A stretch of DNA of 64,000 bases from NCBI RefSeq assembly GCF_040548735.1, contig NZ_JBEPSD010000002.1:310001-374000 (forward strand), in the 5' to 3' direction. This document shows, in pieces, positions 11,638 to 59,758 of this stretch (the stretch's first letter is position 1; every line of letters starts with the position of its first letter). A program made the position numbers and the translations under genes. The notes beneath the pieces are model-generated. The model was not told where the DNA came from and did no database searches. It was given only the letters and a program-made list of their open reading frames with translations. The stretch comes from Rhodanobacter soli. GTDB taxonomy: Bacteria > Pseudomonadota > Gammaproteobacteria > Xanthomonadales > Rhodanobacteraceae.

Positions 11638-13029
11638 ATGAGGCGCTGGCTGTGGCTGGTCTATGTGGCGGTTCTTTGCACGTTGCCGATGCGAGCGGCG
11701 TTTGCCGTCGAGCCAGCGGTTGCCGGCGGCACGGCGACCCATGGCATGGTGGCGCAGATCACCCTGGATGGCCCGATCGGCCCCGCCGCGGCGGAGTACT
11801 TCGACGACGCCTCGAAGCGCGCGGTGGCCGATGGCGCGGTGGCGATCGTGCTGCGGCTGGACACGCCCGGCGGGCTGGCCGAGTCGATGCGGCAGATCAT
11901 CGCCAGCATGCTGTCCTGCGAGGTGCCGGTGCTGGTGTACGTCGCCCCGGGCGGTGCGCGGGCAGCGTCGGCAGGAACGTACATCCTGTATGCCGGGCAG
12001 ATCGCTGCGATGGCGCCGGCCACCCACTTGGGCGCGGCGACGCCGGTGCAACTGGGCGGCGACCGGCCGGTGCCGCTGCCCAAGGCCAGTGACCAGCCGG
12101 CGGCAGCGGGTTCTGCCGCCAAGGACGAGCCGGGTGCCGGGGACGATGCCGAGTCGCACAAGGTCATGAACGATGCGATCGCCTATATCCGCTCGCTGGC
12201 GCAGTTGCGAGGTCGCAACGCGCAATGGGCCGAGCAGGCGGTGCGCGGCGCGGCCACGCTGACCGCCAGCGAGGCCGCGCAGCAGCATGTGATCGACTTC
12301 GTGGCGGCAGACGTGGCCGACCTGCTGGACAAGGCGGACGGGCGCAAGGTGCAAGTACGCGATCGCGACGTCACGCTGCAGCTCAAGGGCGCGTCCGTGC
12401 ATGAGTATGCGCCGGGTGCGCGCACGCGCTTCCTGGCGATCATCACCAACCCCACCATCGCTTATCTGTTGCTGCTGGCCGGTATCTTCGGCTTGCTGCT
12501 GGAAGCCATGCATCCCGGCGCAATGTTGCCGGGCATTGCCGGCGGCATCTGCCTGCTGGTCGGCCTGTACGCGCTGCAATTGCTGCCGGTGAACTACGCC
12601 GGGCTGGCCTTGATGGCGCTGGGTGTTGGCTTGCTGGTGGCCGAGGCGGTCAATCCCAGCGTGGGTGCGTTCGGCGTCGGCGGACTGGTTTCGTTCGTGG
12701 TGGGCTCGGTGATGCTGATGAATACCGGGGTGCCCGGTTATGGCGTCAATCTCGGCGTCATCGCCGGCATCGCGGTGTGCGCGGCGGGCTTGCTGGCCTT
12801 GATCGTGTGGCTGGTGTTCCGTTCGCGCCGGGCCGGGCCGGTCACCGGCGATGCAGCGATGCAGATGGACATCGGTGAACTGCTGGAACCGGTGGAAGCC
12901 GGCGGCGAGGCCTGGATGATGGTGCGCGGCGAGCGCTGGCGCGCGCGTTGCGATACCGCCTTGCCGGCGGGTGCGCGGGTGCGCGTGGTGTCGCGGCAGG
13001 GGTTGCTGTTGCGGGTCGAGCCGGCATGA
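11638..13029 (+). CDS. NfeD-like membrane protein with ClpP-type serine protease domain
   Basis: A 463-residue long-form NfeD (NfeD1b-type). The order is signal peptide (to about residue 24), ClpP-like protease domain, four to five membrane helices (from about residue 265: [21 protein letters not shown]) and a C-terminal OB-fold ([19 protein letters not shown]). The protease domain has [14 protein letters not shown] and the nucleophile region [12 protein letters not shown], where the second Ser is the expected catalytic residue, and a Lys partner later. In archaea and bacteria this protease cleaves the C-terminus of the partner stomatin. The gene directly upstream of a slipin gene, 37 bases apart, fits that pairing exactly. 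Confidence 0.92.
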
Positions 13030-13066
13030 ACCGGCGCGGCAATTTCATGAAAGGCAGGAGATGATC

Positions 13067-13843
13067 ATGTTCGGATTCGTCGGTGTACTGGTAATTCTTG
13101 GCGCGCTGCTGCTGTTCTCCGCGGTGAAGATCCTGCCGGAGTACCAGCGCGGGGTGATCCTGACCCTGGGCCGCTACACCGGGACCAAGGGCCCCGGACT
13201 GGTGCTGCTGGTGCCGTTCGTGCAGCGGATGATCCGCGTCGACCTGCGCGTGACCGTGATGGACGTGCCGCCGCAGGACGTGATTTCGCGCGACAACGTC
13301 TCGGTGCGGGTCAACGCGGTGGTCTATTTCCGTGTGGTGGAACCCGACAAGTCCGTATTGCAGGTGGAGAACTTCCTGCAGGCGACCAGCCAGCTGGCGC
13401 AGACGCGGCTGCGCTCGGTGTTGGGCCAGCACGAGCTGGACGAGATCCTGTCGCAGCGCGATTCGATCAACCACACCTTGCAGACCATCCTCGACGAAGC
13501 CACCGACCCGTGGGGCATCAAGGTCGCCAACGTGGAGATCAAGGACGTCGACCTCAACGAAACCATGGTGCGCGCGATCGCCCGTCAGGCCGAGGCCGAG
13601 CGCGAGCGCCGCGCCAAGGTGATCCACGCCGAGGGCGAGATGCAGGCTGCCGAGAAATTGCGTGACGCCGCCGCGATGCTGTCGCAGCAGCCGCAGGCCT
13701 TGCAGCTGCGCTACCTGCAGACGCTGGCCGACATGTCCAACAACGGCAAGTCCTCGACCATCGTGTTTCCGCTGCCGCTGGACCTGATCCGGCCGCTGAT
13801 GGAGGCGTTCCCGGCAAAGTCCGATCCGGCCTCGAATCGCTGA
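13067..13843 (+). CDS. Slipin (SPFH/stomatin-like protein), partner of NfeD
   Basis: A 258-residue SPFH protein with an N-terminal membrane hairpin ([20 protein letters not shown]) and the stomatin signatures [43 protein letters not shown] and [18 protein letters not shown] charged coiled coil follows ([17 protein letters not shown]). The C-terminal hydrophobic motif [12 protein letters not shown] is the type of site cut by NfeD protease. The ATG at 13067 is preferred over ATG 13061, because AGGAG (13056-13060) abuts the latter. It forms an operon with the NfeD gene and probably organises membrane microdomains. Confidence 0.93.
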
Positions 13844-13908
13844 ACTGGCGCAGCCGTTCAAAGCGGGTGAATAATGCCGCTCACCTCCTGCCAAGACGAG
13901 CGATCACC

Positions 13909-14730
13909 ATGGATGCAGCACGTTCACCCGGAAGCCTGGTCTGCGTGGGCCTCGGCATGACCCTGGGCTCGCACCTCGGTCCGCTGGCGCGCAGCCATAT
14001 CGAACAGGCGGACGTGGTGTTCGCCGGGCTCTCCGACGGCATCGTCGAGCTGTGGCTGAACAAGATGCATCCGGACGTGCGCAGCCTGCAGCCGTACTAC
14101 CACGAGGGCAAGTCGCGCATGCAGACCTACCGCGAGATGGTCGAGGCCATCCTCACCGAGGTGCGTGCAGGCAAGCGCGTGTGCGGGGTGTTCTACGGCC
14201 ATCCCGGCGTGTTCGCCTGGGCGCCGCACAAGTCGATCGAGGTGGCCCGCAGCGAGGGTTACCCCGCGCACATGGAGCCGGGCATTTCCGCCGAGGATTG
14301 CCTCTACGCGGACCTCGGCATCGACCCGGGTCGCTACGGCTGCCAGCACTTCGAGGCCAGCCAGCTGCTGTTCTACCGGCGCCGGATCGACCCGACCGCT
14401 TATCTGGTGCTGTGGCAGGTGGGCCTGGTGGGCGATCAGTCGCTGGCCCGCTTCTCGACGGGCCCCGCGTACAAGCAGGTACTGGTCGACGTGCTGGCGC
14501 GCGACTACCCGCTCGATCACGAGATCACCATCTACCGCAGCGCCACCTTGCCGATCCAGCAGGCGCGGATCGAACGGGTGCGGCTGGGCGACCTGCCGCA
14601 GGCGAAGGTCGAGATGGAGGATACGGTGGTCGTGCCCCCTGCAGGTCCGCTGCAGCCGAATACGGAAATCCGTGCGCGTCTGGCCGAGCTGGACCGGGCG
14701 GAGGCCACAGCCCAAGTGGATATTCTGTGA
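13909..14730 (+). CDS. Borosin-type peptide alpha-N-methyltransferase (split system)
   Basis: A 273-residue protein of the tetrapyrrole-methylase (TP_methylase) fold. The SAM-site signatures are SLVCVGLGMTLGSHLGPLA, the loop VFYGHPGVFAWAPH and PGISAEDCLYADLGIDPG. The last two match the borosin methyltransferases (OphMA and split relatives), where YGHPG and SAEDCL are characteristic, rather than cobalamin or sirohaem methylases. The Tyr-x5-Arg-x3-Tyr catalytic signature of borosins (Y66/R72/Y76 in OphMA) appears as Y64, R70 and Y74 within YYHEGKSRMQTY. GCQHFEASQLLFYRRR and LVLWQVGLVGD are further family motifs. Unlike OphMA it has no C-terminal core fused to it, so it must act in trans on separate precursors, three of which follow. 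ATG 13909 is chosen over GTG 13867 because the domain starts right after it. These enzymes methylate peptide backbone amides in the cytoplasm. Confidence 0.9.
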   Translation: MDAARSPGSLVCVGLGMTLGSHLGPLARSHIEQADVVFAGLSDGIVELWLNKMHPDVRSLQPYYHEGKSRMQTYREMVEAILTEVRAGKRVCGVFYGHPGVFAWAPHKSIEVARSEGYPAHMEPGISAEDCLYADLGIDPGRYGCQHFEASQLLFYRRRIDPTAYLVLWQVGLVGDQSLARFSTGPAYKQVLVDVLARDYPLDHEITIYRSATLPIQQARIERVRLGDLPQAKVEMEDTVVVPPAGPLQPNTEIRARLAELDRAEATAQVDIL

Positions 14731-14875
14731 GCAGGTAGACAAGTTGGTGTTGGCGGCGTCTCTAGGATGGTTTGGCGCAGGCTTGCAGTTGCCGGTAATC
14801 GGACGGGCTTACCCCGTTCCTATGGCCGGGCAGCCTGCGTATTCCAACCAACCGTACACTCGAGGAGAGAACGCC

Positions 14876-15142
14876 ATGTCCAATATCATCGATTTCCTGG
14901 AAACCATCGGTCAGGATGCCAATCTGCGCTACGCTTCCAACGGGGAAATGCAGCACATGCTGGTCAATAGCCAGCTGGATCAGGATATCAAGCAAGCTGT
15001 GCTGGCCAGGGATCAGCAACGATTGACTGCGCTGGTGGGGGCGCAGAATGTATGCTGCTTGCTGGTTCCCGCGCAGGTACGGTGCTTGCTGGTTCCGGGG
15101 ATCAACGACGAAGATGAACACTACGAAGAGCGGCGTGCTTGA
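14876..15142 (+). CDS. Borosin precursor peptide 1 with a repeated core
   Basis: An 88-residue protein with an excellent ribosome site (GAGGAGAG, five bases before ATG 14876). Residues 1-57 form a helical leader beginning MSNIIDFLETIGQDANLRYA, the LigA-like borosin-binding-domain pattern found in split borosins. From residue 59 comes a hydrophobic, Cys-containing core: VCCLLVPAQ followed by VRCLLVPGI, a nine-residue unit repeated once. A short acidic tail (NDEDEHYEERRA) ends it. The core is the expected place for backbone N-methylation by the enzyme encoded 145 bases upstream. It lacks the Nif11-type leader and has no secretion signal. The product, number of methyl groups and cleavage site cannot be read from sequence. 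It shares leader and core position with the proteins at 15225 and 17751. Confidence 0.85.
   Translation: MSNIIDFLETIGQDANLRYASNGEMQHMLVNSQLDQDIKQAVLARDQQRLTALVGAQNVCCLLVPAQVRCLLVPGINDEDEHYEERRA
15050..15103 (+). repeat. 27-bp tandem repeat encoding the doubled core of precursor 1
   Basis: Two in-frame 27-bp units, 15050-15076 and 15077-15103, encode VCCLLVPAQ and VRCLLVPGI. The segment TGCTTGCTGGTTCC is identical in both (15056-15069 and 15083-15096). The identity at silent positions points to a recent duplication of the core. Confidence 0.9.
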
Positions 15143-15224
15143 GGCGAGACGGATTCGCTGACGCGCAGTGAAAGAGGGTCCGCATTGCCAGGGACGCTGA
15201 TTACGTCAGCAATCAGGGGGTTGT

Positions 15225-15506
15225 ATGTCCGATGTCATTGAGTTTCTCGAAAAGGTGGGGCGGGACGCGCAGTTGAATTGCGCAACAAAGGGCTCACCCG
15301 ATTTTGCGCTGATGTTGGCTGGCCTTGACCCGATGCTGCAGAGTGCGATTTGTGGCGGGGACCGAGCGAAGCTGGGGGCTCTGATGGGGGTTGCACCTGT
15401 CTGTGGTTTCTTGGCGCCAGGGGAAGAGCAGGAAGAGGATGATTCTGGAGAAACCCCCTCCCCCGATGATGGCGAGGAACGTTCGGTGTCAGATTTCGCG
15501 GACTAA
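15225..15506 (+). CDS. Borosin precursor-like peptide 2
   Basis: A 93-residue protein whose leader (MSDVIEFLEKVGRDAQLNCA) matches precursors 1 and 3, with conserved I-x-FLE-x-hydrophobic-G-[QR]-D-A-x-L. The core-like segment PVCGFLAPG places Cys at residue 60, the same position as in the other two. It is followed by an unusually acidic tail (EEQEEDDSGETPSPDDGEER). The ribosome site is a weaker AGGGGG before ATG 15225. A small inverted repeat, GCTGA-TTACG-TCAGC (15196-15210), lies just before it. Its stop is five bases from the start of the diguanylate cyclase gene, so the two are almost certainly co-translated. Function as a methyltransferase substrate is inferred from leader identity and linkage. 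Confidence 0.78.
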   Translation: MSDVIEFLEKVGRDAQLNCATKGSPDFALMLAGLDPMLQSAICGGDRAKLGALMGVAPVCGFLAPGEEQEEDDSGETPSPDDGEERSVSDFAD

Positions 15507-15511
15507 GTTCA

Positions 15512-17323
15512 GTGTTCACGTCCGGCACGCAGCGTCGGGGAATGATCCTGGGATGGATCCTGCTTGGGTTGTCATTCGCGGGTATGGCCATGGCGGCCAT
15601 ACCCGCGTCTATCAATGATCCCGTGTCATTGCTCAGGCAAGCGGACAGCATCAAGTTGTCGGATCAGGGGCAATTTCTCGAAATACTCGATGTCTTGGGT
15701 AATGACAGCGCGCGCTTGCCACCCGATCAGCTGGACTATCTTCGTTACCTGCAGGCTTGGGGGGCAGCGTACCGAGGCGACTACAAGTTATCGGATTCCC
15801 TTCTCAAGGGCCTTCTGAATCACTCCACGGACGTGACCCTTCATTTCAGGGCCGGGGTATTGCTCGTCAATACATTGGCGGAGCGATCGCGGTACGAAGA
15901 GGCGTTTCAACGGCAAAGTTTGTTGCTTGCTGAACTGCCAAAGATTACCGATCCCGACGCGCGCAGGCAGGCGCTTGTCATTGCGGCCTATTTGTACGAA
16001 GAGGCCGGGCAGTACGATCTGGCATTTACGTATGCCGATCAGCTGTTCAAAGAGACTCCGGAAATTGGTGAATACAGTTGTATTGCTAGCCACGCGGAAC
16101 TCGCGGCGTTGTACAAGAGCGATAGACTGGAAGATATCGATCGCAAGTTTCAGAAGGGCATCGACATCTGCACCAAGGTGGGTGACCTGGTTTATGCCAA
16201 TGGAATCAGGTTCTATGAAGCGAGCTTGGCTCTGCAGCGAGGTCAAACTGATATTGCTCTCCAGATATTGAAGAGCAACTACGCCGATGTCCAACATACC
16301 AAATATCAGATGCTGATCTCCCAGTTCGACGCATCATTGGCGGAGGCGTATAGAAAAACCAACCGTCTAACGTTGGCTCGGCAGTATGCACTTGCAGTAG
16401 TCGACCAGAGCAAAATCAACAGGTTTGCCGAGTCGCTGAGTATTGCCTATCAAGTCTTGTATCTGACCGAGAAGCAGCAAGGACACATGGAGGCTGCACT
16501 TGCCTATCACGAGCAGTACATGGATGCCAACAAGGGCTATTTGAACGCGGTGAATGCCAGGGCGTTGGCATATCAGACTGTGCAACAACAACTGCTGGCT
16601 AAGAAGCTGCAAGTTGATACCTTGAGCAAGCAGAATCAAATTCTGCAGCTCCAGCGGAACCTCGACAAGAAGGCTTCCGAGACGAGCCGTCTGTATATTC
16701 TGCTGTTGCTCACCGTGCTGGCTTTCATTGGCTTCTGGACCTACCGCATAAAGCGCTCGCAGCTGCGTTTCATGCGCCTGGCACGTCGTGACGGACTCAC
16801 GGACATATTCAATCGGCAGCACTTCGTCCATGCAGCCGAACAGCAGTTGCAGTACTGCCGAAAATCCGGGCGGGAAGCCTGTCTGGTGCTGATCGACCTG
16901 GATCACTTCAAGATTGTCAACGACACCCATGGGCATGCGGTGGGCGATCGCGTGCTGAAACGTGCTGTGGCAGCCTGCCAGGCGCATCTGCGCTCCACCG
17001 ACATTTTCGGCCGTCTGGGTGGTGAGGAGTTCGGCATTGTGTTGCCTGAGTGCACGCTTGAGCAGGTGCTGGGCCGGACTGAACGGATCCGTTTGGCGAT
17101 CGTGGCGGTGGCTCGTGACGACGATGCTCCCGACATTTGCGTCTCGGCCAGCTTTGGCGTGGCCAGCACCACCTGTTCCGGCTATGAACTACGCCAGTTG
17201 CTGATCCACGCCGACGACGCGCTGTATCAGGCCAAGCGCGAAGGCCGTAACCGGGTCAGCGTGAGCGACGGTCGCGCAAAACCACACCTGAGTGCCGTTG
17301 GCGCGGTGACCGACGGGGTGTAG
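15512..17323 (+). CDS. Membrane diguanylate cyclase with periplasmic TPR sensor (copy 1)
   Basis: A 603-residue protein: signal or first membrane segment (MILGWILLGLSFAGMAMAA), a helical TPR-repeat region of about 350 residues, a membrane helix near residues 395-412 (YILLLLTVLAFIGFWTY), then a GGDEF domain. The active site is GGEEF (about residue 502), preceded by DLDHFKIVNDTHGHAVGD. The product-inhibition I-site RxxD (RSTD) sits exactly five residues before GGEEF. It should make c-di-GMP in the cytoplasm in response to something sensed in the periplasm. The GTG at 15512 is kept because it gives an N-terminus matching the paralogue at 18103. The TPR half is visibly lower in GC than the GGDEF half. 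It is translationally linked to precursor 2. Confidence 0.9.
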   Translation: MFTSGTQRRGMILGWILLGLSFAGMAMAAIPASINDPVSLLRQADSIKLSDQGQFLEILDVLGNDSARLPPDQLDYLRYLQAWGAAYRGDYKLSDSLLKGLLNHSTDVTLHFRAGVLLVNTLAERSRYEEAFQRQSLLLAELPKITDPDARRQALVIAAYLYEEAGQYDLAFTYADQLFKETPEIGEYSCIASHAELAALYKSDRLEDIDRKFQKGIDICTKVGDLVYANGIRFYEASLALQRGQTDIALQILKSNYADVQHTKYQMLISQFDASLAEAYRKTNRLTLARQYALAVVDQSKINRFAESLSIAYQVLYLTEKQQGHMEAALAYHEQYMDANKGYLNAVNARALAYQTVQQQLLAKKLQVDTLSKQNQILQLQRNLDKKASETSRLYILLLLTVLAFIGFWTYRIKRSQLRFMRLARRDGLTDIFNRQHFVHAAEQQLQYCRKSGREACLVLIDLDHFKIVNDTHGHAVGDRVLKRAVAACQAHLRSTDIFGRLGGEEFGIVLPECTLEQVLGRTERIRLAIVAVARDDDAPDICVSASFGVASTTCSGYELRQLLIHADDALYQAKREGRNRVSVSDGRAKPHLSAVGAVTDGV

Positions 17324-17750
17324 TGACCTCCGTTTGTCTGCCTGCCTGGGGGCCATGGCTCCATGCAGGTCGATCACAAGGGGCGGTATGGCTTTCGGTG
17401 CCGAGTCGAGCTATCGCTGGAGCCATGCGAAAAGTCCGGTGACGGAAGTGTTATCCGTCCGAGGGCGGGATCGACGGGTCGAATGTGCCGATAAGCTCGG
17501 ACAACGGGTCTTGTACTGGAAAGGGTTACGACGGGACCGGTGGCAGCTCGGGGTTACCTATGACTGGCCAAGAAAAGCCGGTTCGTCATGCGCGCCGTCG
17601 AAGGGATGGTGTATTTTCGGCCCGTTGTGGTGGGGGTGCTGCTTGCAGCGGGCAGGGCATGGGGTAGTGGGGGACGAGACCTGCAGGACAGATTGATGTG
17701 GCCATCATTGGGTCGCCGGCCATCAATCGTTCTGATGAGGGGAGTGGCCG
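17324..17750 (+). other. Intergenic leader before borosin precursor 3
   Basis: A 427-base stretch without a supportable gene; the short frames in it have no ribosome site and no family features. Near its end is a direct repeat GGCCATCA[TA]T at 17700-17709 and 17718-17727, one and two helical turns from each other (18-base period) and just upstream of the ribosome site GAGGGGAG, which could be an operator. I saw no convincing riboswitch or terminator. The length suggests that precursor 3 has its own promoter. Confidence 0.35.
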
Positions 17751-18050
17751 ATGTTCGATGTGATCGATTTTCTGGAAAGGATGGGGCAGGACGCGCAATT
17801 GCGTCATGCATCGCAGGATGAAGTGGGGCTTGCGCTGGCCGGCGCAGAGATTGATCCGGAATTGCGGGTGGCGATCCTTGCCAGGAATGAACCGGGTCTG
17901 CAGGCGCTGCTGGGACAGGGTCCCTTCTGTTGCCTGATCAACCCAGCCAAGCCAGACGGGGAACAGGAAGAATGCGACGGCAGCTGCGAAGATGATGAAG
18001 AGGAGAAGGACAAGGAGAATGATAGTGATAAGGGAAAGGGTGAAGAGTAA
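17751..18050 (+). CDS. Borosin precursor-like peptide 3 with long acidic tail
   Basis: A 99-residue protein. The leader (MFDVIDFLERMGQDAQLRHA) is the closest match to precursors 1 and 2. The core-like segment PFCCLINPAK again has Cys at residue 60. Then comes a highly charged tail from residue 69 to the end, dominated by Asp, Glu and Lys and containing two more Cys (EECDGSCEDDEEEK). GAGGGGAG precedes the ATG at 17751 at good spacing. It is followed after 52 bases by the second TPR-GGDEF gene, repeating the arrangement seen for precursor 2. It has no signal peptide. Being a substrate for the methyltransferase 3 kb upstream is inferred. Confidence 0.78.
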   Translation: MFDVIDFLERMGQDAQLRHASQDEVGLALAGAEIDPELRVAILARNEPGLQALLGQGPFCCLINPAKPDGEQEECDGSCEDDEEEKDKENDSDKGKGEE

Positions 18051-18102
18051 AGGCCTGGCTTCACGACTTGCCACTCCTGGTCCTGTGATCACTGGATAAC
18101 TC

Positions 18103-19869
18103 ATGAACCAGGCAGGCAGATGCAGACGAGTGTTTTCTTCCTGCGGACTCCTGTTCTTGTCTGTTGGGTGCGCGACTGCTGCGACCGCGCTCGTATCCAA
18201 CGATCCTGCGCAATTGCTAAAACAGGCCGAAAGTGCGCAACCCTCCAATCGAGCCGAGTTCGATGAGCTCATGGGGCGACTCGATCAAATGGCGATGCGG
18301 CTTTCGCCGCAGCAGAAGCTGCATCAACGTTACCTTATGGCACGGCAGATCGCCTTTGCAGGCAACTATGAAGGAGCCATGCCATCGTTGAAGGCGATCG
18401 CCGATCAAGCTGTGGATCCTGTTCTGGCGTTTCGCGCCAGCGCCACGGTGATCGACCTACTGGTGACCCAATCCCGGTATGAGGAGGCTTTTGCCAGGCT
18501 CAATCCGTTGCTTGACCAGTTACCTACCATGAAGGAAGGCGACGTCCGAATGCAGGGGTTCGGTGTTGCGGCGCAGTTGTACAACGAGGCAGGTCAATAC
18601 GATTCGTCCGTTCGCTATGCCAATCAAATAATCAAGGAAAGTACCGACGCCCAAAGTGCATGCCGGGGTTGGTTCTACAAGTCGGATGCGCTGTTTGAAA
18701 GTGGCAGTGCACAGCTTCCTGCCGATCAACTTCACGAGGGCATGGAGGCATGTGGAAAGGCCGGCGATACACTGTTTGCGCTCAGTTTTCAGTATTTGCT
18801 GGCGAGCTTCGACCTGCGGCAAGGGCACACTGAGTCGGCTATCCGTGTGTTGCGAGCGAGCTACCCCAAGGTGTTGCAAGCAGGTTTTCCCCCCCAGGTT
18901 TCCCAGTTCGAGGCTTCCTTGGCCACGGCTTATTGGAAGAGCGGCGACCTTGCTTCGGCGGTGAAGTTTGCCAATGACGCCCTGGTGACGAATGCCAACC
19001 GGCAGTATTCGGAGTCGACGACCAATGCTTATCGGGTGCTTTACGAAGTCGACAAGGAACTGGGCGACAGCAAGGGCTCCCTGGCATACCTTGAAAAATA
19101 CGTAGCTGCCCATGATGACTATCAGAGCCGGCTCAGCGCGAAAGCGCTCGCCTATCAGATCGTCAAGCAGCAGATGCTGGCAAAGAAACTGCAGATCGAC
19201 GGGCTCGACAAGAAGAACAGGATTCTCACCCTTCAGGGAGAGCTGGACCGCAAGGCGGTGGAAACCAGCCGCTTGTACATCGCGTTGCTGCTGCTGGTGC
19301 TGGCATCCATTGCATTGTGGACATACCGCATCAAGCGTTCGCAATTGCGCTTCATGCGGCTGGCGCGGCGCGACGGTCTTACCGGCATCTTCAACCGGCA
19401 GCACTTCGTCAACGAGGCCGAGCGGCAGTTGCGCTATTGCCGCAAATCGTCGCGCGATGTTTGCCTGGTGCTGATCGACCTGGATCACTTCAAGGCGGTC
19501 AACGACACCCATGGGCATGCGGTGGGTGACCGTGTGCTTAGGCGCGCGGTCGATGCCTGCCTGGCGCACCTGCGCTCCACCGACGTGTTCGGCCGTCTCG
19601 GCGGAGAGGAGTTCGGCATGTTGTTGCCCGAGTGCACGCTGGACAACGTGCTGGCGCGGGTCGAGCAGATGCGCGCGGCGATCGCCGCCGTTTCGGGCGC
19701 CAGGGATGCGCCCGGCATACCGATCTCGGCCAGCTTTGGCGTGGCCGCCGCGGCCACCTCCGGTTATGAGCTGCGGCAACTGATGATCGATGCCGACTGC
19801 GCCCTGTACCAGGCCAAGCACGAGGGGCGCAACCGGGTCAGCCTTTTCGAGGCCGGTATGCGCGGCTGA
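18103..19869 (+). CDS. Membrane diguanylate cyclase with periplasmic TPR sensor (copy 2)
   Basis: A 588-residue paralogue of the protein at 15512 with the same order: N-terminal membrane/signal segment (CGLLFLSVGCATAATA), TPR-like helical region, membrane helix near residues 389-406 (YIALLLLVLASIALWTY), GGDEF domain with GGEEF near residue 499 and the RSTD I-site five residues before it. The GGDEF part is nearly identical to copy 1 at the protein level, while the sensor halves are clearly diverged, as expected if each senses a different ligand. The duplication includes the preceding precursor gene, so precursor plus cyclase behaves as one module. Probably active, given intact catalytic and inhibitory motifs. 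Confidence 0.9.
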   Translation: MNQAGRCRRVFSSCGLLFLSVGCATAATALVSNDPAQLLKQAESAQPSNRAEFDELMGRLDQMAMRLSPQQKLHQRYLMARQIAFAGNYEGAMPSLKAIADQAVDPVLAFRASATVIDLLVTQSRYEEAFARLNPLLDQLPTMKEGDVRMQGFGVAAQLYNEAGQYDSSVRYANQIIKESTDAQSACRGWFYKSDALFESGSAQLPADQLHEGMEACGKAGDTLFALSFQYLLASFDLRQGHTESAIRVLRASYPKVLQAGFPPQVSQFEASLATAYWKSGDLASAVKFANDALVTNANRQYSESTTNAYRVLYEVDKELGDSKGSLAYLEKYVAAHDDYQSRLSAKALAYQIVKQQMLAKKLQIDGLDKKNRILTLQGELDRKAVETSRLYIALLLLVLASIALWTYRIKRSQLRFMRLARRDGLTGIFNRQHFVNEAERQLRYCRKSSRDVCLVLIDLDHFKAVNDTHGHAVGDRVLRRAVDACLAHLRSTDVFGRLGGEEFGMLLPECTLDNVLARVEQMRAAIAAVSGARDAPGIPISASFGVAAAATSGYELRQLMIDADCALYQAKHEGRNRVSLFEAGMRG

Positions 19870-20053
19870 ATGTCGTGCGGACGCGTGAGAGTCTGCCGCC
19901 CTCACGCCGGCGCCAACATCTTCGTGCCAGGACGGTGGCCGCGTTTGCACGTTTGCCGCTGCAGCAGGCGATCGCGGGCGGGACCCGCTGCATGGACAGC
20001 CGGGTAGGCGCGCGCTACAAAGGTGGTCGATTTCACCGGTGGGGAGTGTTCCG

Positions 20054-21739
20054 ATGCGCATCAGGAGTTCTGTCTTGCTGGCTGCCCTGGGCCTGATCGT
20101 GTTTCCGCTGCAGGCGGCAACGGGACCGAGGGTCGAGCGGTCGCCGTCGATCAACGCTGCGGATTTCGCGCGCTTCGACAAGACGCTCAGTTCCGACGCG
20201 TTCGGCGGGCGAAAACCCGGCACGATCGGCGCGCAACGCACCACCGATTTCCTGGTGGCCGAGTTCAAGCGGATGGGTTTGCAGCCGGGCAACCACGGCT
20301 CGTGGTACCAGACCGTGCCGGCCGACTCCACCTTGCTGCTGAATACCGACGTCACCCTGGACGTCACCGCCCGCGGCAAGCCGCTGAAGCTGGCGTACCG
20401 CACCGACATGGTGGCGCAGACCCTGCAGGCGAAACCCGAGGTCGCGCTGAAGGACTCGCCGGTGGTGTTCCTCGGTTACGGCGCGAATGCGCCCACCTGG
20501 CACTGGAACGACTACCGGGATGTCGACGTGAAGGGCAAGACGGTGATCGTGCTGGTCAACGACCCCGGCTTCGCCAGCCGCGATCCGAAGCTGTTCAACG
20601 GCCGCGCGATGACCTGGTACGGCCGCTGGCCATACAAGTACGCGGAGGCCGCGCTGCAGGGCGCTGCCGCCTGCTTCATCGTGCACACCAGCGACGCCGC
20701 GGCCGGCTATCCGTGGAGCGTACTGCAGAACGGTTCGGTCGGGCCGCAGCTGAGCCTGCCGGGCAGTGTCGATCCATCGCCACGGTTGCCGGTGGCCGGC
20801 TGGCTGACGCGTGACGCGGCCACCCGGCTGTTCGCCGCCGCCGGCCTCGATTTCGCCGAGCTCGAACGGGCCGCGGCAAAGCCGGGCTTCGAGCCGGTGC
20901 CGTTGCACGCGACGGCCTCGATCGCCCTGCACAACAAGATCGGCCACATCGAATCGAAGAACGTGGTGGCGATGGTCGAGGGCAGCTACAAGCCCGATGA
21001 GGTGGTGGTCTATACCGCGCACTGGGACCACCTGGGCACCGACCCGACCCGCAAGGGCCACCAGGTCTATGCCGGCGCGATCGACAACGGCACCGGCCTG
21101 AGCATGCTGCTGGAAATCGCCGACGCGTTCGCGCACCAGGCGCGGCCGCCCGAGCGCAGCGTGCTGTTCTTCATGCCGACGCTGGAGGAATCAGGCCTGC
21201 TCGGTTCGCAGTACTACGCGGCGAAGCCGGTGTTTCCGCTGGACCGCACGGTGGCCGACATCGCCGTCGACGCCTTGCCGATCATCGGCCCTGCACGCGA
21301 CATGACGGTGATCGGCAAGGGCCAGTCCGAGCTGGAGGACATGCTCGCCGGCGTATTGCGCAAGCAGGGCCGGGTGATCTCGCCGGAGGCCACGCCGGAG
21401 AATGGCTTCTACTTCCGCTCCGATCATTTCAACTTCGCGCGGGCCGGCGTGCCGGCGATGCTGGCCAGTTCGGGCCTCGACCTGCTCGATGGCGGCAGGG
21501 CCGCCGGCCAGAAGGCGGCCGACGACTATACGGCGCACCGCTACCACACGACGAACGACGTGTTCGATCCGCACTGGAACTTGCAGGGCATCCTTGAGGA
21601 TACCCAGGCGCTGTATGAGCTGGGCCAGCACCTCAGCCATGCGGGAGTGTGGCCGCAGTGGTACGCCGACAACCCGTTCAAGGCCAAGCGAGAGACGATG
21701 ATGGCGCCGGCCAGACAGAAGGCTGGCATCTCAAAATGA
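20054..21739 (+). CDS. Exported M28 family zinc aminopeptidase with PA domain
   Basis: A 561-residue peptidase with a signal peptide (SVLLAALGLIVFPLQAA). A PA insert domain (residues about 130-250) is followed by the M28 domain. Metal ligands of the di-zinc site are recognisable: His in TAHWDHLG (about 322), bridging Asp in AIDNGTG (about 341), the Glu pair in LEESGLLGS (about 378), Asp in IAVDALP and His in RYHTTNDVFD (about 497). It should remove N-terminal residues from peptides in the periplasm or outside. ATG 20054 has GGGGAG seven bases upstream, so it is preferred to GTG 20039. It follows the borosin-like locus on the same strand, 184 bases away; a link is possible but unproven. Confidence 0.92.
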   Translation: MRIRSSVLLAALGLIVFPLQAATGPRVERSPSINAADFARFDKTLSSDAFGGRKPGTIGAQRTTDFLVAEFKRMGLQPGNHGSWYQTVPADSTLLLNTDVTLDVTARGKPLKLAYRTDMVAQTLQAKPEVALKDSPVVFLGYGANAPTWHWNDYRDVDVKGKTVIVLVNDPGFASRDPKLFNGRAMTWYGRWPYKYAEAALQGAAACFIVHTSDAAAGYPWSVLQNGSVGPQLSLPGSVDPSPRLPVAGWLTRDAATRLFAAAGLDFAELERAAAKPGFEPVPLHATASIALHNKIGHIESKNVVAMVEGSYKPDEVVVYTAHWDHLGTDPTRKGHQVYAGAIDNGTGLSMLLEIADAFAHQARPPERSVLFFMPTLEESGLLGSQYYAAKPVFPLDRTVADIAVDALPIIGPARDMTVIGKGQSELEDMLAGVLRKQGRVISPEATPENGFYFRSDHFNFARAGVPAMLASSGLDLLDGGRAAGQKAADDYTAHRYHTTNDVFDPHWNLQGILEDTQALYELGQHLSHAGVWPQWYADNPFKAKRETMMAPARQKAGISK

Positions 21740-23055: not shown

Positions 23056-25815
23056 TCAGGGTTTCGCCGGCGGCGTATCCAGCTTGTCGAAATTCACGAT
23101 GGCGTTGAGCACCAGCGGGTAGCCGCCGATGGTTTCGCCGCGCCAGATCGGGTTGCTGGCGAACAGCAGCACGTGGCCCTTGCCGTAGCGGGCGTCAACC
23201 ACGGCGGCGCGTTCGGCCATCTCGTCGCCGCCGTCGAGCAGGCCGGAGATCAGCAGGTTCTTCGCGTCGGTGTAGCGCAGGATCACCCGCGGACGCTGGT
23301 CGGCGGGAATGACCCACGGGTTGTTGCGCATCTGCTCGGCGTTCAGCGGCAGCGGCTGCCATGGCTTGACGTCGGGCAGGGGAGCGGCGGCGATCGAGGC
23401 GCGGCCTTCAGGCGTGTCCGGGTCGTGCGGGCCGCCGCGTCCGGTCGGGCGCTGGAAATCCTTCGCGGTCGGCAGGCCCTTGTCGCCGGTGACCAGGTTG
23501 GACACCTTGAACGACTGGCCGGCCGCGCTGTACAGCGCCAGTTCGTCGCGGCTGTAGCCGGCGGCGATCGGGCCGCTGCGATCGACGAACTTCGCCTGCA
23601 GCACGCTGCCGACCACTTTCAGCTTGTCGGTTTTCGTGATGAACACGCCCGGCGCCAGACCGACATCGATGGCGAACTTCGCCGTGTCCTCGGCGGTGAT
23701 CAGCAAGCCGCCCGCCTGCACGAACCGCTTGAGGTTGGCTACGCCGGTCTCGCCCAGTCCGGGGCGGATGTCGTCGGTGGCGTCGATATGGCCCAGGTTC
23801 GGCGTCAATGCGGTGGTCTTCCACGGCAGCGGATTGCCCCACATGGGCAGGCCGTCGATGATCTGCTGTGCGCTGGCATCGCCAACCGGGCCGAACAGGA
23901 TCACGTCGTACTTCGCGCGCAGGTCGCCGGCCTTCGCCACGTCCTGGGTGCTGATGTAGTCGTACGGCACCTGCAGCTTGTCCAGCGCCATGCGCCACCA
24001 GCCTTCGGTCTGGGTGCTCAGCCAGGTGTGCATCAGCGCGATGCGCGGCAGTTTCGTAGGCGGCATGTCGACCGCGGCCAGGCCCTGCGGCACGGCGATC
24101 GGCCCGTCGAGCAGGCTCATCGGCGCCTTGAGGATCGCGGTGTCGGTCACCCGCACCACCTGGACGTCGAACAGGTCGCCCATCGACCAGCCGGTGTCGT
24201 CGTAGGGGTGCTGCTGCGGGTCCTTCGGCGACCAGTACTGGCGATCGAGCAAGGTATCGACGATGCGCGAGTACGGCTGGTCCATGCGCACGACATAGCT
24301 GCCGGCGGGGAAGGTCTGCGTCTTGGCCTTCTTCTTGCCGTCATCCTGCTTGGGCAGTGTCACCGTGACCGGCGCGCCGGTGCGGCTGATCTCCGCGTGC
24401 TGCAGTTGCAGAACCCGCAACAGCTGGGCGCGCGAACCGGGGCGCTTGTCGTCGGCCGGAAACACGTAGGCGGCGGGACCCGCTTGCTGCGGCTTCTCGA
24501 TCGAGCGTTTGCTCTTCAGGTAGAAGTTCTTCAGGAACTGCTGGCCGTTGCCGGAGAAGTAGGCCAGCGCGGTGAGCAGGCCGGTCTGCTGGTAGTTGTT
24601 GTTGTTGCGCTGCGACCACAGCACGGTCGGCAGCGGCGGGTTCGGGCGGTACCAGGTGCGCTGGTATTCCTCGGGGTCGAGGATGCGCTGCACGGTGTCG
24701 GCGCCGGCGTTGCCGAAGGTTTCGTACAGGCGGCTGATGCCGTTGTGCATGGCGGCGATGAACATCAGGTAGCCCGGGCTCCAGGTGTCGAAGTCACCGT
24801 GGGTGAACACGCCGGGCATGCCGAGCCGGGTCAGCTGCTGCACGTTGTCCCAGCCCAGCTGTTGCCACTCGCCGGTGAGGATCGGATCGATCCACGCGTT
24901 GTACGGGCCGTCGCCCACGGTGTTGTCGTACAGGAACGGCACCGATTCGTGCAGGTCGTGCAGCACCTGCGCGTGCCAGCCGACGAAGGTGTCGGCCACG
25001 TGGCGGGTGAGGTTCAGCGACATGCCCATCGCGTCGCGGTTGTTGTCGTGCGCCACGTAATGGCCCCAGTACAGCAGCCGCGGATAATTCTGGCCTGGAT
25101 GCGCCAGGTGCCAGTTGTACAGGTCGGCCATGCGGTCGCGGCCGTCGACCTCGACCACTGGGGTGATCAGGGTGATCACGTGCGAGCGGATCTGCCGGAT
25201 GTACGGCGCCTCGTCCACCGCAAGGCGATAGGCCAGTTCCATCAGCGCGGTGGGCGAGCCGGTCTCGGTGGAGTGGATGGCGCCGGTGATGTAGTAGACC
25301 GGCGTGGACTGCGCGATCAGCTGGTCGGCAGTGGCGTCGTCCATGCCGATGCGGCGCGGGTCGGCCAGCTTGGCGAGGCGCGCCTTGTTCGCGTCGAGGT
25401 CGGCCAGCAGGCTTTCGTCGGCAATCGCCACCGCGATCATCTCGCGGCCTTCCTCGCTCTTGCCGATCGAGAACACCTTCACCCGCGGGCTGGCCGCGGC
25501 CAGCGCGCGGAAGTAGCGATGGACGTCGGCTACATGGGGCAGGTAGTTCGGTGCGCCGGCGATGTGGTCGAGCACCTTGTCCGGCGTGGGCACGCTGGCG
25601 GAGGCGGGCAGGTAGTCGGTCAGCGGCGAATTGAACGAGGGGTCGGTGGTGAATTTCAGGATCTGCGCCGTATACGCCTGGTCGACCGGCTGGGCCGTGT
25701 CGCGGGCAAACGACGACGCGGTGATCGCCGCATCGTCCGCAGCGATCGATGCCATGGCACTGACCGTGCCGAGCACCAGCAGGGTGGCAAGCGAGAGCCG
25801 AACGGATACACGCAT
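23056..25815 (-). CDS. Exported M14 family zinc carboxypeptidase-like protein
   Basis: A 919-residue protein. The ATG at 25815 is chosen because a signal peptide follows at once (LATLLVLGTVSAMASIA) and AGGGGAA lies upstream. The M14 domain occupies roughly residues 80-400, with the first zinc motif H-x-x-E in GAIHSTETGSP (H181, E184) and LHDLHESVPF later. A C-terminal glutamine-amidotransferase-like domain follows (VANLKRFVQAGGLLITAEDTAKFA), as known for large M14-like proteins of this group. It presumably trims peptides in the periplasm or medium. It heads a run of exported peptidase genes on the minus strand. Confidence 0.9.
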   Translation of the reverse strand: MRVSVRLSLATLLVLGTVSAMASIAADDAAITASSFARDTAQPVDQAYTAQILKFTTDPSFNSPLTDYLPASASVPTPDKVLDHIAGAPNYLPHVADVHRYFRALAAASPRVKVFSIGKSEEGREMIAVAIADESLLADLDANKARLAKLADPRRIGMDDATADQLIAQSTPVYYITGAIHSTETGSPTALMELAYRLAVDEAPYIRQIRSHVITLITPVVEVDGRDRMADLYNWHLAHPGQNYPRLLYWGHYVAHDNNRDAMGMSLNLTRHVADTFVGWHAQVLHDLHESVPFLYDNTVGDGPYNAWIDPILTGEWQQLGWDNVQQLTRLGMPGVFTHGDFDTWSPGYLMFIAAMHNGISRLYETFGNAGADTVQRILDPEEYQRTWYRPNPPLPTVLWSQRNNNNYQQTGLLTALAYFSGNGQQFLKNFYLKSKRSIEKPQQAGPAAYVFPADDKRPGSRAQLLRVLQLQHAEISRTGAPVTVTLPKQDDGKKKAKTQTFPAGSYVVRMDQPYSRIVDTLLDRQYWSPKDPQQHPYDDTGWSMGDLFDVQVVRVTDTAILKAPMSLLDGPIAVPQGLAAVDMPPTKLPRIALMHTWLSTQTEGWWRMALDKLQVPYDYISTQDVAKAGDLRAKYDVILFGPVGDASAQQIIDGLPMWGNPLPWKTTALTPNLGHIDATDDIRPGLGETGVANLKRFVQAGGLLITAEDTAKFAIDVGLAPGVFITKTDKLKVVGSVLQAKFVDRSGPIAAGYSRDELALYSAAGQSFKVSNLVTGDKGLPTAKDFQRPTGRGGPHDPDTPEGRASIAAAPLPDVKPWQPLPLNAEQMRNNPWVIPADQRPRVILRYTDAKNLLISGLLDGGDEMAERAAVVDARYGKGHVLLFASNPIWRGETIGGYPLVLNAIVNFDKLDTPPAKP

Positions 25816-25996
25816 GATGGATTCCCCTGGGACGGCAGACGACAGATCGCTGCACTCTGCCAGAACATGGGCGGAAACGCGTAGCCCATCAGTTGGGTGG
25901 GCGCGCCAGGAGCATGCAGCATGGATCTTCACCATGTCCTTGCCGCTTTGCAGACAGGATCATGGTCGATCAGTCGTCATTCGATGCGCGCTTGAG

Positions 25997-59682: not shown

Positions 59683-59758
59683 TGGTGGAGCGGATGGGGA
59701 TCGAACCCACGACCTCCACGATGCGAACGTGGCGCTCTCCCAGCTGAGCTACCGCCCC
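59683..59758 (-). tRNA. tRNA-Ala (anticodon CGC)
   Basis: A 76-base cloverleaf on the minus strand: acceptor GGGGCGG pairs with CCGCTCC and contains the G3:U70 alanine identity pair, the D-arm has AGCTCAGCTGGGAGAGC, the anticodon loop is TTCGCAT (anticodon CGC), the T-arm contains GGGTTCGATCCCC, and CCA is encoded. It reads GCG codons. Confidence 0.96.

Follow-up and report, generated by a model that had tools for sequence, protein, structure and literature searches.

A split-borosin gene set in Rhodanobacter soli encoded beside predicted TPR-domain diguanylate cyclases, and its candidate role in peptide sensing

Introduction

The gene set considered here comes from Rhodanobacter soli and lies within a 64,000-nucleotide stretch of contig NZ_JBEPSD010000002.1 (positions 310,001 to 374,000 of the forward strand, hereafter the window), which belongs to a 3.89 Mb genome. 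A predicted split-borosin methyltransferase, three small precursor genes and two genes for sensors with a tetratricopeptide repeat (TPR) domain are found side by side in this window. That bacteria contain split borosins, and how widely, is already known (PMC8429565, PMC11395268 and PMC11285071, each in part), and the locus described here adds a member. The closest described system is SonM-SonA, a type IV split borosin from Shewanella oneidensis, which features a separate enzyme, SonM, and a precursor, SonA, with a helical borosin binding domain and a C-terminal core (PMC8429565, in part). SonM mutants at Y58, R67, Y71 and Y93 are slower, according to the covered part of PMC8429565. Types V–X, named in the covered parts of PMC11395268 and PMC11285071, likewise have a separate enzyme and precursor in bacteria. 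As of 2021 no split-borosin pathway had been tied to a final product, as stated in the covered part of PMC8429565. In the portions of the literature covered, no statement of a role for split-borosin peptides was found.

Two further kinds of system resemble the locus. In the RRNPP systems of Gram-positive bacteria a small peptide gene adjoins the gene of a cytosolic TPR receptor, and the cassette is repeated. The locus in R. soli also has peptide genes beside genes for TPR proteins; however, the putative receptor is not cytosolic but sits in the membrane, having an N-terminal hydrophobic helix as well as a membrane helix, its output is a cyclase or a kinase, the host is Gram-negative, and the peptide is probably backbone-methylated. 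By analogy, the pair would work like an RRNPP pair without being a member of that family. The second kind is the TPR-containing membrane diguanylate cyclases, with which the sensors share their architecture and the GGEEF motif. Among the matches listed for the names of the host, borosins are not mentioned. A 2023 study by Crone and others, known by its title, is said to tie a split-borosin pathway to its final product. A search of open-licence literature, which did not extend to the central borosin papers, gave no paper connecting borosins with diguanylate cyclases, cyclic dimeric guanosine monophosphate (c-di-GMP) or tetratricopeptides, so such a link may be in print. PMC10885120, a match for borosins together with quorum sensing, makes no link of this kind in its covered part.

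The Methyltransferase and Its Precursors

The enzyme gene (13909–14730, forward strand) encodes a protein of 273 amino acids and starts with ATG, although a GTG at 13867 is also possible within the open frame. A phmmer search of the PDB returned SonM (PDB 7ltc) as the top match with an E-value of 1.2e-78 and residues 8–258 aligned (51% identity over 254 columns), and all 25 PDB sequences among the matches listed are, by name, SonM or fungal borosin enzymes. Pfam assigns the protein to the TP_methylase superfamily only. Residues Y64, R70, Y74 and Y96, counted along the printed alignment, correspond to Y58, R67, Y71 and Y93 of SonM. The first three are retained in 135 of 136 aligned enzymes and Y96 in 134 of 136; one row, L171, has none of the four unless it is misaligned, and precursor and sensor were also undetected at that locus. 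The enzyme has no fused core because the protein stops after the catalytic domain, and enzyme and precursors are separate open reading frames (ORFs), with 145 bp between the enzyme and the first precursor. By these comparisons the predicted protein is a close relative of SonM and probably a split-borosin backbone α-N-methyltransferase. The initial annotation had proposed a borosin-type α-N-methyltransferase that carries the Y64/R70/Y74 signature and lacks a fused core, and the SonM match, the alignment and the end of the protein bear out all three points.

Precursor 1 (14876–15142, forward strand) has 88 residues and features a leader followed by two tandem core-like repeats, CCLLVPAQV and RCLLVPGIN, which were recognised by eye. 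Precursor 2 (15225–15506, forward strand, 93 residues) and precursor 3 (17751–18050, forward strand, 99 residues) each consist of a leader, a core region, near PVCGFLAPGE and PFCCLINPAKP, respectively, and a long acidic tail. The three have leaders in common: precursor 3 is 45% identical to precursor 1 over 67 residues (E 2e-20) and 43% identical to precursor 2 over 76 residues (E 7e-16). A leader hidden Markov model (HMM) matches precursors 1, 2 and 3 with E-values of 1e-25, 1e-21 and 1e-29, which are not independent since these three precursors seeded the model. The ratio of nonsynonymous to synonymous substitution rates (dN/dS) over residues 1–62 is 0.05–0.40 in 13 comparisons with relatives: 0.05–0.22 for precursor 1, 0.40 for precursor 2 (one comparison) and 0.14–0.36 for precursor 3. 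Given the model E-values and the low dN/dS, the three predicted ORFs are more than chance. The leader HMM was run on 82 sources, namely 80 named loci (the best 80 of 162), a second locus of the same genome (L004) and the window; 78 of them yielded precursor ORFs, 116 in total.

A profile built from 33 precursors matches the SonA chains collinearly with E-values of 7e-7 to 3e-6; precursor 3 alone found no match in the PDB. The predicted model of precursor 3 (mean predicted local distance difference test score, pLDDT, of 74) has five helices within residues 4–53, and the remainder is unstructured. Foldseek ranked SonA chains first for this model, with a probability of 0.90 and a weak E-value of 1.3, none being below 1. 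These results indicate that the three small genes are SonA-type precursors whose leader is a borosin binding domain, predicted to have five helices. A Nif11 leader was rejected, as its match lay under the cut-off with an E-value of only 0.13. The cores contain Cys in many precursors, and a motif of Cys, two to three hydrophobic residues, zero to one further residue, Pro and Ala or Gly is present in 27 of 112 distinct cores, compared with a mean of 0.3 after shuffling. By eye, the motif is also seen outside the family, in KMWCFMVPAEED (L195), KQWCLMVPEKDD (L203) and IICFLVPAEDD (L142). The locus differs from SonM-SonA in having three precursors and two sensors per enzyme, and in cores of Cys, hydrophobic residues and Pro with acidic tails in place of a SonA-like core. 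Enzyme and precursors almost certainly form a split-borosin gene set, as far as sequence can tell. In a Luteibacter locus (L089, 10483–13102) seven consecutive precursor genes stand ahead of one TPR-GGDEF gene.

The TPR Sensors

The gene set extends past 18050, up to 19869. Sensor 1 (15512–17323, forward strand, 603 residues) follows precursor 2 after 5 bp, and sensor 2 (18103–19869, forward strand, 588 residues) follows precursor 3 after 52 bp. Both are predicted to feature an N-terminal hydrophobic helix, a TPR domain, a membrane helix and a GGEEF-bearing GGDEF domain, and sensor 2 is 52% identical to sensor 1 in the genome search. Pfam matches GGDEF with E-values of 3e-41 and 5.5e-41 in sensors 1 and 2, respectively; the TPR match of sensor 1 is under the cut-off and that of sensor 2 (TPR_14, 3.5e-6) is over it. 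The AlphaFold model of sensor 1 (mean pLDDT 86) has helical repeats at residues 37–322 and a long helix at residues 326–424. Hydropathy puts the TPR domain and the output domain on opposite sides of the membrane. C190 and C220 of the TPR region are invariant across 33 aligned sensors, a pattern that would be compatible with an extracytoplasmic disulfide.

Within the family set the GGEEF signature is retained in all 84 cyclases, and a membrane helix is likewise found in 84/84. The N-terminal hydrophobic stretch was detected in 54/84 with a strict threshold, a shortfall that is partly due to start-codon calls. The sensors of loci beyond this set have the membrane helix in 51/51 and, with a milder threshold, the N-terminal stretch in 47/51. 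The initial annotation had described one methyltransferase with three precursors that have related leaders and Cys-containing hydrophobic cores. Sequence, profile and predicted fold uphold this description; it was incomplete in that it omitted the two TPR-diguanylate cyclase genes, and the repeats of precursor 1 and the acidic tails of precursors 2 and 3 are to be added.

Association of Enzyme and Sensor in the Family

A complete TPR-GGDEF gene is present in 70 of the 80 named loci, and in six more (L046, L054, L056, L061, L105 and L107) a copy is cut by the contig end. In three others (L048, L053 and L102) the contig ends at or just after the enzyme. This leaves 77 testable loci, of which 76 have a TPR sensor next to the enzyme. 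A precursor was detected in 76 of the 80. The precursor stands directly 5′ of the sensor in 82 of 84 cases, in a set drawn from enzyme loci rather than from cyclases generally, and the gap between the two is usually 3–50 bp. This position behind a borosin precursor distinguishes the subfamily from other TPR-containing membrane diguanylate cyclases. Locus L054 lies on a contig labelled Candidatus Eremiobacteraeota with an enzyme that is 79% identical, and the label is probably a binning error or reflects a recent transfer.

In the survey of 233 family genomes (cut-offs of E 0.001 for the enzyme and E 1e-20 for the sensor profile), the enzyme was found in 164 and the sensor in 164. Both are present in 162 genomes and neither in 69, there is no genome with a strong enzyme match alone, and the sensor occurs alone in two, G462 and G505. 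Weak enzyme matches in G440 and G523 (E near 1e-4) resemble tetrapyrrole methylases. In G505 (L214) the sensor is accompanied by a precursor and, nearby, a 24-residue enzyme-like piece with 50% identity, and the enzyme may have decayed there with precursor and sensor left over. In G462 a SonA-like precursor (42% over 52 residues) lies near the contig start, and the 3 kb read contain no enzyme. The 233 genomes are mutually related and a p-value would mislead; the joint absence in G022 and G577, two genomes of the genus of the window that have neither enzyme, sensor nor precursor, is more telling than a family-wide p-value.

In the R. soli genome itself, sensor 1 as a query returned 24 matches, and each of the top three (100, 52 and 46% identity, nearly full length) is preceded by a precursor; the next match is partial with 31% identity. 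The precursor profile matches four places. A second split-borosin locus (L004, 8594–10742 plus the enzyme; C2:263626–266645) is situated 58 kb off. Its enzyme is 75% identical to the first, it has its own TPR-GGDEF gene, and its precursor core belongs to a different class (PLAPPQSTLGPAHEDE).

A census of gene neighbourhoods at 61 loci, in which antisense ORFs cost genes so that all counts are low bounds (the sensor itself was counted in only 52), found no other gene family as constant around the enzyme. Among the relatives, the predicted TPR sensor is the most constant partner of the enzyme and precursor genes.

Loci beyond the Family Set

A further 54 loci comprise all 13 from the same order, nine at E<1e-19 (of which L169 is from the family of the window), 12 additional places, with one at a contig edge excluded, and 20 chosen from the genus of genome G404. 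These 20 together with L172 and L184 cover 22 of the 31 strong places in that genus. The enzyme is uncommon in an evenly drawn sample of the class, where, apart from the genome of the window, 9 of 369 have it at E<1e-19, one of them in the same family. HMM and BLAST searches within 1.5 kb of the enzyme labelled a TPR sensor in 45 of the 54 loci, with GGDEF in 37, a histidine kinase in seven and both in one. Pfam adds L194, where a hybrid histidine kinase has a TPR match under the cut-off, which brings the totals to 46/54 with a sensor and 9/46 with a kinase output. In four kinase forms (L170, L172, L194 and L196) Pfam found HisKA, HATPase, receiver and TPR matches. The predicted output domain, a cyclase or a hybrid histidine kinase, is thus swapped on a retained TPR part.

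A precursor was detected by HMM in 34 of the 54 loci, the one in L177 being doubtful. Of 14 GGDEF loci without an HMM precursor, 12 have an ORF of 60–77 residues with a similar start, judged by eye; L183 has a weak precursor match on the opposite strand only, and L198 has none. The sensor link reaches beyond the family of the window because L180 and other further loci have a TPR sensor. L180 is the fetched locus nearest to SonM-SonA, with an enzyme 77% identical to SonM and a precursor 61% identical to SonA; here the precursor follows the enzyme after 68 bp and is itself followed, after 11 bp, by a TPR-GGDEF gene.

In L195 (4516–9429) and L203 (4773–9431) the genes for a pepsin-like protease, the enzyme, a GNAT acetyltransferase, a precursor and a TPR-GGDEF protein are found together in this order. 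Pfam identified the protease and the acetyltransferase in L203 and PF00026 in L195. Acetyltransferase-like ORFs in an equivalent position were noted by eye in L183, L205 and L207 and by Pfam in L042. Shewasin A, a pepsin-like protease, reportedly matures a borosin precursor, in work attributed to Lee in 2024. Such maturation would agree with the pepsin-like gene that immediately precedes the enzyme in both L195 and L203. Shewasin D is mostly cytoplasmic (PMC4814920, in part). A search for a pepsin-like (shewasin-type) PF00026 protease gave no match in the R. soli genome or in six genomes of the same genus, and a match in one of six genomes of the G404 genus (G638, the sole positive control).

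Pairing of Cores and Sensors

Core classes, which were assigned by a loose regular expression that seems to misclass L062 and L065 in the PQ-type clade, fit the TPR tree with six changes, the GGDEF tree with 11 and the enzyme tree with nine; shuffled core labels require a mean of 36 on the TPR tree. A single supported clade unites the eight sensors encoded after FCCLI[NHS]PAKP precursors; it crosses species boundaries and includes modules that are first or later behind the enzyme. The partial rank correlation between core and TPR is 0.33 (permutation, 2 per 1000) and that between core and GGDEF is 0.21 (4 per 1000). For the leader, the partial correlation with TPR is 0.58 and with the enzyme 0.20.

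Proposed Function and Alternatives

The best explanation overall, favoured by slightly more than an even chance, is that N-methylated peptides act as ligands for cognate TPR sensors that control c-di-GMP or a phosphorelay. For the ligand-receptor part, in which the peptides bind their cognate sensors, the chances are about balanced. The SonM-type enzyme would bind the helical leader of each of the three precursors, a step for which homology is strong, and would methylate backbone amides in the short core of Cys, hydrophobic residues and Pro. Peptidases may then cut the core free from the leader and acidic tail, and the N-methylated, protease-resistant peptide would arrive in the periplasm, either of the producing cell or of a neighbour. 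There it would bind, at the TPR domain, the sensor whose gene lies beside its own, and the signal would cross the membrane along the long helix and alter c-di-GMP synthesis. In relatives, domain searches show that a hybrid histidine kinase replaces the cyclase on a TPR sensor.

Several observations weigh against this proposal. Binding, methylation and the mature product are all inferred from sequence. L112 is a complete locus that has the enzyme and precursors without a sensor, and eight of the 54 further loci (L141, L171, L173–L177 and L189) also lack one, six of these eight having enzymes below 40% identity. When the leader is controlled for as well, the core-TPR correlation (0.23) is hardly above that of core and GGDEF (0.20); genetic linkage alone could produce the pairing of cores and sensors, which is consistent with the proposal and not proof of it. 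The TPR part is without a matched peptide receptor, because the first 50 Foldseek matches of the sensor are all GGDEF structures. In addition, no transporter, protease or tailoring gene is conserved in the family set (61 loci, low bounds).

The peptide may instead be secreted for another job, as an antimicrobial or as a metal ligand through its cysteines, with the cyclase tying its production or effect to the biofilm state and without the peptide being a ligand of the sensor. This is unlikely but deserves weight, since ribosomally synthesized and post-translationally modified peptides are commonly weapons or metallophores and since Cys is found in many cores. The same neighbourhood census, however, finds no export or immunity gene constant around the enzyme, precursor 3 orthologues from different species have almost the same core, unlike diversifying toxins, and the constant part is the TPR sensor domain rather than the output alone. 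It is rather improbable that the precursor, methylated or not, works inside the cell without export, its leader or core binding the cytoplasmic linker or GGDEF domain of the sensor. The short precursor-sensor gap in most loci is like that of subunits produced together, and leaders covary more with sensors than with the enzyme, but what is retained through the exchange of outputs is the TPR domain, located by hydropathy on the other side of the membrane from the output.

Shared ancestry could also be all that keeps enzyme, precursor and sensor together, with no function in common. Most of the compared loci belong to a single family plus one other genus and are therefore not independent; against this stand the joint absence in two genomes of the same genus, the exchange of outputs, the repeated precursor-sensor modules under a single enzyme and the persistence across orders, which make this explanation very improbable. 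It is barely conceivable that the enzyme is instead one of the methylases of the cobalamin or sirohaem pathway, with unrelated small genes beside it. Such enzymes share the TP_methylase superfamily, but the best NCBIfam match reached 38 bits against a cut-off of 525 (seven families listed), and the SonM match, the catalytic residues and the precursors that adjoin the enzyme in the named loci all speak for a borosin enzyme. The initial annotation had named a grouping with these methylases as the outcome contrary to its claim, and this grouping was absent.

Neighbouring Genes

An M28 peptidase (20039–21739, forward strand) and an M14 carboxypeptidase (23056–25935, reverse strand) are encoded just past the sensors. 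Apparent counterparts, matched by eye, are found in about 9–10 of the 61 loci, and the two may be candidate maturation enzymes or reflect mere synteny. Directly 5′ of the enzyme, an NfeD protease-like protein and SPFH (Band 7) membrane proteins are encoded (11638–13843, forward strand); the NfeD cluster was counted in only 4/61 loci (a low bound). Rfam found no c-di-GMP riboswitch, its sole match in the window at the gathering score being a tRNA (59686–59758, reverse strand). A search for sigma-70-type promoters within 13700–20100 gave none, compared with 2.2 expected by chance.

Implications

The constant sensor partner, the exchange of cyclase and kinase, and the joint absence lead to a concrete, testable function. 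With its exchangeable output, the conserved TPR sensor points to what many bacterial split borosins probably do. A broader proposal, which is put forward tentatively and falls somewhat short of an even chance, is that bacterial split borosins are largely peptide signals and not weapons, N-methylated ligands whose genes share a cassette with those of cognate TPR receptors, the output of which, a diguanylate cyclase or a hybrid histidine kinase, is exchangeable. They would be a Gram-negative, membrane-bound counterpart of the Gram-positive peptide-TPR pairs, in which methylation would give stability and membrane passage and replace a transporter. If the proposed function is true, Gram-negative bacteria would have their own class of ribosomal, backbone-methylated peptide signals feeding into c-di-GMP.
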